This document shows positions 3,912 through 30,294 of a stretch of DNA of 33,567 nt, piece after piece. The position numbers and the translations under genes were made by a program. Each line of letters opens with the position of its first letter. Positions within the stretch are counted from its first letter, which is position 1. The stretch comes from an uncultured Clostridia bacterium. GTDB lineage: Bacteria; Bacillota; Clostridia; Oscillospirales; JAAYOS01. The stretch spans positions 1 to 33,567 of the forward strand of contig CANRIN010000017.1 of the NCBI GenBank assembly GCA_947630675.1. Direction: 5' to 3'. The notes under the pieces were generated by a model that worked only from the letters and a program-made list of their open reading frames with translations, did not search any database and was not told the DNA's origin.

Positions 3912-4134
3912 GCCTCGCAGAGTTTCGCCGCGTAAGCGGCGAAATAGAGTGGAATCTATTTTCGGCGGCGGCGTGTACGTCGCCGAAAATACTTTGCGCG
4001 GAGCGCGCTTCGAAGCGGCGTAGCCGCAAGGAGCAGAGCGGAGTGCTTGCTGCCGGCAGAGCTTTGCTCTGTCCGGCGGCCTCGCTGCAAATTGGTAAGG
4101 GCGCGGATGAAATCCGCGCCCGCGATTTGCAGCG
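3912..4134 (-). repeat. Hairpin-mosaic repeat, array A (single core unit, reverse orientation)
   Basis: Ends in GCCTCGCAGAG (3912-3922, reverse of CTCTGCGAGGC); TTTCGCCGC-GTAA-GCGGCGAAA hairpin; outer stem CGCTGCAAAT/ATTTGCAGCG (4083-4092/4125-4134); same architecture as arrays B-D. Confidence 0.85.
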
Positions 4135-4139
4135 ACATC

Positions 4140-4168
4140 TTGTATTTCCTCTTGGAATGGTGTAGAAT
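4140..4168 (+). promoter_or_regulatory. Candidate promoter TTGTAT-N17-TAGAAT
   Basis: TTGTAT 4140-4145, TAGAAT 4163-4168; upstream of CDS starting 4209. Confidence 0.5.
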
Positions 4169-13403: not shown

Positions 13404-14092
13404 TTCGCGGGAAATCGCGCGGGCTTCGCCCGCGACCTATTTCCCGCGAAGCCTCCGGACAAGGCGTAGCCTTGCCGGCGGCAGGCGCTCCGCTACGCGC
13501 CGAGTTTTCCGCCTGCGGCGAAAAATCGACGCACGCTCCGCGAGAGGAGTTTTTTCCGACGTACACGCCGCCGGAAAAAACGATTTGACTCTATTTCGCG
13601 CCTAGCGGCGCGAAACTCTGCGAGGCTGTCGGCGCGAAATGTGCTCGCTTACGCTACGCACCCTTTCGCGCCGAGAACGCCGGACAGAGCGGAGCTCTGC
13701 CGACAGCAAACGCTCCGCTACGCGCCGAATTTTCCGCCTTGGGCGAAAAATCGACGCAATTCCCACGCGGTCAGTGACCGCGTGGGAGCCCTTCCGATGG
13801 AAATGCTCGCCCCGAATGAATCGGGGCTCCGCAAAGTTGCTTGCCTATGGCAAGCAACTTCAACCGCGCGAACAGGCGCGGAAGCGGCTTTGCCGCTTCG
13901 AAGCGCGAACGGCGAGAGGTGTAAATTTCGCCGCCCTCCGGCGCGTATAAAGTTGGGCTTTCGGCGTGAAGCGCTGAAACTGATGCGCCCGGTAGAAAGT
14001 GCCGATGCGTAAAAAGTTGAGGGGCGCATTGACGACAGAAATTTGCCGATTGGAATTTATTTCGCCGCTAAAGCGGCGAAACTCTGCGAGGC
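13404..14092 (+). repeat. Hairpin-mosaic repeat array B (two tandem units 13404-13626 and about 13629-14092)
   Basis: Outer stems TTCGCGGGAAAT/ATTTCCCGCGAA (13404-13415/13439-13450) and TCGGCGCGAAA/TTTCGCGCCGA (13629-13639/13664-13674); CTCTGCGAGGC at 13616-13626 and 14082-14092; module M 13952-14030. Confidence 0.88.
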
Positions 14093-28358: not shown

Positions 28359-29294
28359 GTGTCGGAAAAACCGAATAAGCTCGGACTGCGGCGTTTCCCG
28401 GACCTTCCGGTGAGCCGCGAGCATACGACCGGCATCGAGCGGCTCGACGCGTGGCTCATGGGTCACAGAAGGGCGAGAGAGGTGTTCGGCTTCGTATTCC
28501 GGATACTGAGGGACAACCTGATAGGCACCGCCGCGCAGACGGCGTTTTTCCTGCTGCTCGCCATTTTCCCGATACTCATGCTCGTTGCCGGATGGCTCTC
28601 GAGGATGCCGTTCGCGTTTGACACCGGGCTTATATCGGCGATATTCCCCGAGTCGGTAGCTTCGACTCTTCAGGAGGTCATGGAGCACGCGCCGGGCTCC
28701 ACGGGATACACCGTCGTGCAGATAGCGCTGTCGGTCTGGTCGGCGTCGGCCGGTATCTGGGCGCTGATGCGCGGTATATGCATATCCCACACCGGCAGGA
28801 CTCCGAACTACTTCAAGGGACGCGTCATCTCGGTGCTGCTGATGGTGGGCTTCGTCGCGATGATAGCGCTGAGCCTCGTCGTCTGGGTGTTCGGACGCGA
28901 CATAGTGAGCTACGTCGCGGGAGGGGACTGGCAGAGCGGCGACGTCCTTGTTTCGGTGGCGCGCTACGCCTTCACGCTGCCGTTGCTGTTCCTGTTCGTG
29001 CTTGTGATGTACGCCGCGACGCCGGGCTTCCGCCTCGAGATGCGTCAGATGGCGATAGGCGCGGCGATCGCCGCCGTGAGCTGGACGCTCATAAGCAGGG
29101 GCTTCGAGGCATATATGAGCACGTTTTCGCGCTACTCCGCGCTTTACGGTGGCGTCGGCGCGTTCCTCGGCCTTGCGGTGTGGCTGCTCGTCGTCTGCTT
29201 TGTGATAATGTTCGGCGCGGAAGTGAACGCGTATATCGCGGAGACGGCCGCGCTCCGCGCGGCGCTCGCAACCGAGCTGCGACCGAAGGGATAA
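28359..29294 (+). CDS. YihY/virulence factor BrkB family membrane protein
   Basis: NLIGTAAQTAFFLLLAIFPILMLVAGWL, SASAGIWALMRGI, ALYGGVGAFLGLAVWLLVVCFVIMFGAEVNAYIAE; GTG start with GGGAGG SD. Confidence 0.92.
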   Translation: MSEKPNKLGLRRFPDLPVSREHTTGIERLDAWLMGHRRAREVFGFVFRILRDNLIGTAAQTAFFLLLAIFPILMLVAGWLSRMPFAFDTGLISAIFPESVASTLQEVMEHAPGSTGYTVVQIALSVWSASAGIWALMRGICISHTGRTPNYFKGRVISVLLMVGFVAMIALSLVVWVFGRDIVSYVAGGDWQSGDVLVSVARYAFTLPLLFLFVLVMYAATPGFRLEMRQMAIGAAIAAVSWTLISRGFEAYMSTFSRYSALYGGVGAFLGLAVWLLVVCFVIMFGAEVNAYIAETAALRAALATELRPKG

Positions 29295-29297
29295 AAT

Positions 29298-29817
29298 TTC
29301 GCGGGAAATCGCGTTCGCGGACTTCCGACTTTGTACAGTGTCGGGACGTCGGCGCGGAGTGCCGAGGTCTGATGCGCCCGGTAGAGAGTTGGATGCGGTA
29401 TGGGTTCGAGGGCGCATTCTTACCAATTTCCCGCGAAGCCGTCGGATAGGGCATAGCCCTACCGACGGCAAGCACTCCGCTACGCAATTCCCGCGCGGTC
29501 GGCGACCGCGCGGGAGCCCTTCCGATCAAAATGCTCGGCGGAAATGAATTCCGCCTGCGCGAAGTTAGCGGCTTTGCCGCTAACTTCAACCGCGCGAACA
29601 AGCGCGGAACCGCCTTCGGCGCTTCGAAGCGCGCTCCGCGAGAAGTGTTTTTTTGCTTTAATTCGCAGAAAGTCGGGACGTCGGCGCGAAGCGCCGAGGT
29701 CTGATGCGCCCGGTAGACGGTCAGACGCGGTATGGGTTCGAGGGCGCATTGTACACGCCGTCGGAAAAAACAGATTGAACCTTATTTCGCGCCTAACGGC
29801 GCGAAACTCTGCGAGGC
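29298..29817 (+). repeat. Hairpin-mosaic repeat array D, unit D1 with two nested M modules and one E module
   Basis: Outer stem TTCGCGGGAAAT/ATTTCCCGCGAA (29298-29309/29426-29437); M 29340-29418 and 29672-29750; E module from 29489; CTCTGCGAGGC 29807-29817. Confidence 0.9.
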
Positions 29818-30246
29818 CATGGCGGGACGTCAGCGCGGAGTGCCGAGGTCTGATGCGAAATCCCAAACGCTCCAGAGGAGCGTTTGGGAGCCCTTCCGAT
29901 CAAAATGCTCGGCGGAAATGAATTCCGCCTGCGCGAAGTTAGCGGCTTTGCCGCTAACTTCAACCGCGCGAACAAGCGCGGAACCGCCTTCGGCGGAAAA
30001 TCGACGCATTCCCACGCGGTCGGCGACCGCGCGGGAGCCCTTCCGATCAAAATGCTCGGCGGAAATGAATTCCGCCTGCGCGATGTTGCCTGCGGCAACA
30101 TCAACCGCTGCGAACAGCGAAAGCGCAAGCCTGTTCTTCATCCTACATTCTACTGCTTTCGCCTGCAATATTCGCTTCGCGAATATTGCCCGACATTGAG
30201 CGCATTGTAGGGCGTGCGCCGCATTTGGCGGCGAACTCTGCGAGGC
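29818..30246 (+). repeat. Hairpin-mosaic repeat array D, distal unit (truncated M, two E modules, 112-nt segment)
   Basis: Partial M 29822-29857; 110-nt exact repeat 29886-29995 (= 29512-29621); third E copy from 30010; 112-nt segment 30103-30214; CTCTGCGAGGC 30236-30246. Confidence 0.88.
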
Positions 30247-30260
30247 TTTTTCTAAAAGCG

Positions 30261-30294
30261 AGGCGGACGGTACATCTGTACCGTCCGCCTTTTG
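30261..30294. terminator. Bidirectional terminator-like hairpin between array D and the E2-like gene
   Basis: AGGCGGACGGTACA-TC-TGTACCGTCCGCCT followed by TTT. Confidence 0.75.

Follow-up and report, generated by a model that had tools for sequence, protein, structure and literature searches.

Modular hairpin arrays in the window

The analysed window, a stretch of 33 567 nucleotides from an uncultured bacterium of the class Clostridia, contains four intergenic arrays of hairpins (A to D) that are composed of recurrent modules. Profile HMMs place these modules in a fixed order, namely, S or R, an optional T, K, an optional insert (N, P or Q), G or H, an optional M, and E. The minimal core, S-K-G/H-E, spans approximately 210–230 bp and is exemplified by array A (S-K-H-E, 3912–4146, minus strand). 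The N insert occurs either alone or joined to the long hairpins Q and P, the M module is also placed in the loop of the S hairpin (arrays C and D), and additional N' and Q' pieces, frequently reversed, are located 3' of E. The other three arrays lie on the plus strand. Array B (13404–14092) consists of S-K-G-E followed by R-K-G-N-H-M-E; array C (23481–24261), which begins immediately at a stop codon (23480), consists of S(M)-K-H-M-E followed by reversed Q', N', Q' and M; and the focal array D (29298–30246) reads, from the module HMMs and the sequence, S(M)-K-N-H-M-E, followed by an M fragment, two N modules, Q and an end hairpin.

The S hairpin of array D (29298–29437, with arms at 29298–29309 and 29426–29437) begins 4 nt past the stop codon of the gene that ends at position 29294. 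Its loop holds an M module, GTCGGGACGTCGG..GGGCGCATT (29339–29418), and it is followed by the K hairpin, GCCGTCGG..CCGACGGC (29438–29469), an N module with four hairpins and fixed linkers that also matches covariance model R1 (29485–29608), the G/H hairpin segment (29609–29651), a further M module separating H from E (29671–29750), and the E module with its terminal AACTCTGCGAGGC (29751–29817). The rest of the array comprises the second N module (29858–29982), a third N module that continues into Q (30006–30107), the long Q hairpin itself, an inverted partner of 23896–24007 (30103–30214), and the end hairpin with CTCTGCGAGGC (30217–30246). These boundaries come from the module HMMs, with the sequence used in addition for S and K, and in their place for the end hairpin. 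An inverted repeat that resembles a terminator, with its T run, was recognized by eye 3' of the array at about 30261–30294 and is absent from the consensus-scan listing.

The outer stems of the four arrays had been proposed from the sequence of the window, together with individual hairpins at 13809–13827, 13834–13860, 29537–29555, 29561–29587, 30082–30102 and, on the minus strand, 24008–24032, and all are present as quoted. The accompanying list left the insertable M and the long hairpins P and Q unseparated. In the sister MAG Lapin-022, the N hairpin motif is repeated in tandem four times at a spacing of exactly 118 bp (L196:1245–1627).

A high-copy family of the Oscillospirales

The 949 bp region 29298–30246 produces 104 HSPs within its own 2.06 Mb genome and has a folding z of −13.5. 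The end motif CTCTGCGAGGC is present in 120 copies in this genome, far more than the 5 expected from the reversed control pattern. Arrays A to D are members of a genome-wide family with approximately 100 arrays per genome; the original prediction had recognized a real family but counted only some seven units. The 125 arrays collected from three congeneric genomes make up approximately 5% of the sampled DNA, a density that is biased upward because the sampling was centred on arrays.

Within the genus, the family was found in three of four congeners, the rabbit-gut MAGs Lapin-003-2, Lapin-022 and Lapin-004; the fourth, G002, gave no match in any search run on that genome. Remote relatives are present in cultured Oscillospiraceae, namely, isolates of Flavonifractor and Pseudoflavonifractor, so that the arrays recur in independent assemblies. 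The scan with a covariance model that had been suggested for the family, carried out with the N module, matched 22 of 250 genomes of Oscillospirales; elsewhere in the class, it returned practically nothing, with one weak match. One pattern scan named the genera Flavonifractor, Pseudoflavonifractor, Intestinimonas and Dysosmobacter along with Clostridia MAGs from rabbit gut that belong to the window genus. The Oscillospiraceae also carry, at a low copy number, a compact relative of the E end that has other flanking hairpins. Phage records, plasmid records and one IMG/VR pattern gave no match to the family. In the Rfam search of the window, a tRNA was the sole match above the gathering score, and relaxed thresholds added nothing credible; 16 Oscillospiraceae loci likewise matched no Rfam family, in keeping with the initial impression of an unrecognized family, and no description of it was found in the literature.

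Location downstream of genes

With genes called by a simple codon-based caller built for this analysis, 58 of the 71 core arrays are located downstream of a gene on the same strand, and in 49 of these 58, the array starts at most 20 nt from the stop codon (median, 4 nt). Arrays are present in 52 of the 97 convergent gaps compared with 11 of the 99 divergent gaps; on inspection by eye, a terminator-like hairpin usually lies beyond their far end. In 3' UTRs, the elements are probably tolerated as selfish or neutral passengers, and any effect on mRNA ends would be secondary.

At five positions (L050:2987, L063:3189, L077:3797, L101:3412 and L051:4714), an array starts 3–6 nt past a TATAAT box. 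For the last of these, the empty site in G001 shows the box to be the promoter that serves the downstream gene, and the array lies in the 5' UTR of that gene.

Covariation of the stems and turnover between sister species

Covariation of the stems is far above that in slid and shuffled controls. Among 45 diverse copies of the N module, the named structure is paired in 97.8% of the cells, compared with approximately 36–45% with slid partners, and two-sided changes occur at 18 of the 36 pairs, with 192 two-sided versus 12 one-sided cells. Among 60 copies from Oscillospiraceae, in an alignment that was fitted to the covariance model and hence leans toward it, two-sided changes are found at 34 of the 36 pairs (495 two-sided versus about 30 one-sided cells). 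For the E module (31 copies), the corresponding fraction is 14 of 17 pairs, whereas the M module shows little variation and keeps a conserved G·G mismatch. The unpaired linkers, for example, AACTCTGCGAGGC, are nearly invariant across genera.

An RNA fold under selection is expected to tolerate G·U on one strand. In the window genus, 235 of the 319 distinct hairpins are perfect, and the mismatches comprise 21 G·T, 32 A·C and 44 others (p = 0.17 for G·T versus A·C); the respective numbers for Oscillospiraceae are 35, 30 and 35, and in the 60 Oscillospiraceae copies, G·U accounts for 1.7% of the pairs, about the same frequency as A·C. No strand preference of G·U was detected in the window genus or in Oscillospiraceae; an apparent strand signal in the N module faded after de-duplication and in Oscillospiraceae. 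The missing tolerance of G·U on one strand counts against a fold kept by RNA selection. Hairpin alleles within N reassort almost freely, with weak linkage (p = 0.013, 0.056 and 0.21), and both orientations are found for loops such as TTT/AAA.

Orthologous loci were compared where the flanks could be matched between species, a biased sample in which the proteins are mostly 85–99% identical. Arrays are mostly retained at these loci, but their stems and modules differ between sister species, as in the exchange of GCGGGGAAT for GCTGCAAAT, in which both arms are altered. Uninterrupted orthologous sites exist as well, among them that of array C in the sister MAG G001 (L089). Paired positions change in one step, and stems are replaced whole. 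The near absence of G·U intermediates, the lack of strand bias, the loops in both orientations and the reassortment of alleles are accounted for more readily by whole-hairpin replacement or template switching than by an RNA fold selected step by step. The original prediction of a modular hairpin family with compensatory stem changes is thus borne out, but its conclusion that the fold is what is maintained is not supported as stated. Whole-hairpin exchange or template switching yields such covariation without selection on RNA (template-switch mechanism, PMC8794818).

Two further differences were observed between sister genomes. In G001, the orthologous array locus at L077:434–1946 is reduced to the S hairpin, followed by a foreign protein-coding insert, which we take to resemble a GIY-YIG-type gene. 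A lone Q'/N' insertion (L101:17568–17752 versus L077:17349–17388) is accompanied by a possible 5–6 bp duplication, TATCAA, unlike the long gene-tail repeats described below.

The insertion footprint

Direct repeats of 26–111 bp flank the element at 36 of the 54 Oscillospiraceae loci with homologs, which include orthologs, so that the number of independent events is below 36. The repeat almost always is the end of the adjacent gene, and control positions show no comparable direct repeat, apart from two loci with tandem arrays. The footprint begins with the gene tail and its stop codon. A 10–18 nt segment that repeats the target junction in inverted orientation comes next, then the element, and finally the gene tail once more. 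Among footprints at gene 3' ends, nearly all have the end of the first tail no more than about 8 nt from the stop codon, and a few footprint loci involve the start of a gene rather than its end. The junction-spanning inverted copy reaches a score of at least 9 at 28 of the 36 loci, whereas among 720 controls, the 99th percentile is 9 and the maximum is 10. In a second, partly overlapping sample chosen by another criterion, the footprint was found at 18 of 31 loci. Relatives with uninterrupted infB and alaS ends confirm insertion at both genes. To our knowledge, this duplication of gene ends fits no transposon mechanism. A reading of the segment from the first tail to the element as a spliced intron was discarded, as no conserved boundary motif is present at the junctions.

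At the seven loci where the two tails differ appreciably, 46 of the 52 codon differences are synonymous, compared with a random expectation of 23%, so that both copies must have been coding while they diverged. Our preferred reading of these differences is transfer between relatives by homologous recombination. The genes alaS, infB and lepA were struck in different genera at different offsets, and such repeated targeting calls for a hot spot or homing. Judged by eye, many of the targets at loci L117–L172 are translation genes (infB, alaS, lepA, efp and tuf-like), perhaps owing to high expression or conservation. At four infB and lepA ends in Oscillospiraceae (L117, L119, L122 and L125), the same gene tails also contain a second hairpin family, ..GCGCTAAAGATTTGCC..GGCAAATCTTCTTAACGCTGC.., with its own tail duplication of about 22 nt that ends at the stop codon.

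The footprint has one clear counterpart in the window genus: in G001, a core element at the end of a ribosomal protein gene, presumably that of S9 judging from the C-terminus, is accompanied by the inverted copy AGTACTTCTCGCGCTCC and by a gene-tail repeat of 61 bp; fragments of an N-type element appear to enclose it. Gene-tail repeats around the 125 arrays of this genus yielded one clear case and no enrichment over the control. With the footprint otherwise missing, the arrays in this genus would be either old or of a different origin, and given one clear footprint in 125, the insertion model for the focal arrays rests on the homology of the N module.

Comparison with known repeat families

The searches for enzymes covered Y1/RAYT, IscB and reverse transcriptases (RTs). 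The RAYT domain (Y1_Tnp, PF01797) had no match in five congener genomes, with the positive controls detected, and the identification of the arrays as REP/BIME was rejected on the absence of this transposase. IscB/RRXRR gave no match over the cut-off in 13 genomes, with one sub-threshold match, and an IscB omega-RNA identity was dropped. RVT_1 is missing from four congeners of the window genus, and the RTs of Oscillospiraceae (group II maturases, retron Ec67 and a Drt4-like protein) are mutually unrelated and not shared, which counts against a SINE-like retroelement with a dedicated or shared RT. At two Oscillospiraceae loci, L254 and L257, a retron Ec67-type RT is a clear match and a Drt4-like antiviral RT falls below the NCBIfam cut-off.

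The cassettes behave like a BOX-like modular interspersed repeat that lies outside every family tested. The BOX elements of Streptococcus pneumoniae are intergenic mosaics of short modules with strong secondary structure and a variable number of modules; they have no transposase of their own, and some are located at gene 3' ends, where they supply the stop codon (PMC3049150). The two share the modular, intergenic, structured organization and the lack of a transposase, which made BOX a fair analogue to propose. The cassettes differ from BOX in grammar and host order and presumably in sequence; BOX varies mainly in the number of boxB modules, whereas the cassettes exchange entire hairpins at several slots and, on insertion, leave a duplicate of tens of base pairs of a gene end as well as an inverted target copy.

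The other proposed analogues fit less well. A REP unit is a palindrome of 20–40 bp, one of whose ends is tagged by GTAG or CGTC; no palindrome with either tag was noticed on reading the arrays by eye, the Y1/RAYT gene is lacking in the congeners, and the units here contain multiple hairpins and span 120–900 bp. REP/BIME share with the cassettes a mosaic array structure and palindromes dispersed in large numbers close to the 3' ends of genes (PMC3733652, PMC8266576). MITEs and Correia elements resemble the cassettes in being short, non-coding, palindromic and high-copy, but the comparison, and with it a MITE identity, fails on the repeats, which are variable at 26–111 bp in place of a short fixed target duplication, on the target-derived inverted segment, and on the absence of any common terminal inverted repeat that we noticed.

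Proposed mechanism and alternative explanations

Our best explanation, to which as a whole we give about even chances, is that the arrays belong to a family of Oscillospirales hairpin cassettes that are non-coding and non-autonomous, lie between the stop codon and the terminator, and are inserted and rewritten by polymerase template switching. The copying strand would exit the gene at the stop codon, copy a few nucleotides of the target backwards and then an element, and resume 19–104 nt upstream, which would create the second copy of the gene tail. Template jumps within hairpins, along with recombination among the many copies, would correct, flip or replace stems; in the window genus, insertion looks nearly finished, and swapping alone would continue. 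A single template-switch event can account for stems without mismatches, compensatory changes at several bases, inverted loops and short inverted copies; such events have been described as local mutations in RNA genes and differ from the spread of a dispersed family with gene-tail duplication (PMC8794818). Here, 28 of 36 junctions carry nearby sequence copied in inverted orientation, and stem changes are coupled. The synonymous differences between the tails speak against this mechanism in its simplest form, being unexpected from a local duplication. The conserved linkers and M module, with the G·G mismatch of the latter retained although palindrome correction without constraint would remove it, make some sequence-level function or recognition likely.

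The arrays could instead be structured RNA under selection, that is, transcribed 3'-UTR modules involved in mRNA protection, termination or protein binding, the fold of which is kept by compensatory mutation. Their position just past stop codons, mostly in the orientation of the gene, the excess of covariation over the controls and the near-invariance of unpaired linkers, such as AACTCTGCGAGGC, all agree with this explanation; the near absence of G·U intermediates without strand preference, the two orientations of copies within arrays, the swapping of whole stems between orthologs and the lack of arrays in G002 in every search made leave it unlikely. A conventional non-autonomous element, either MITE-like or SINE-like with target-primed reverse transcription, mobilized by an unrecognized enzyme, appears rather unlikely: the 26–111 bp repeats would be its target-site duplications, in line with the varying length of the direct repeats where insertion is confirmed and with the presence of RTs in Oscillospiraceae, but these RTs are not shared and are missing altogether from the window genus, the elements have no terminal inverted repeat in common that we noticed, and we know of no transposase product in which repeats of this length end at a stop codon and are joined by an inverted copy of the target.

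Very unlikely, in our estimate, is an RNA-guided or homing element, in which the 10–18 nt target-complementary segment would act as the guide, matching empty alleles alone, and the gene would be restored by the tail brought in with the element. The junction-spanning inverted segment indeed matches only the empty site, the same genes were struck in different genera, and both tail copies stayed coding, but no IscB-type nuclease was found in the 13 genomes searched for it, and the offsets differ within one gene, alaS, which is unexpected for homing of a single allele. Returning to template switching, it is a tentative and rather doubtful extension that the cassettes represent a class of transposase-less bacterial mobile elements that enter at stop codons by programmed template jumps, keep the host gene intact and swap whole hairpins.

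As a route by which DNA spreads without gene disruption, the insertion footprint would be new. The family clearly illustrates, in nature, that strong covariation does not necessarily imply a selected RNA structure, a warning for the discovery of RNAs by covariation. It is also a still unnamed repeat that reaches high copy numbers in common gut bacteria, and the culturable relatives in Flavonifractor make its mobility directly testable.
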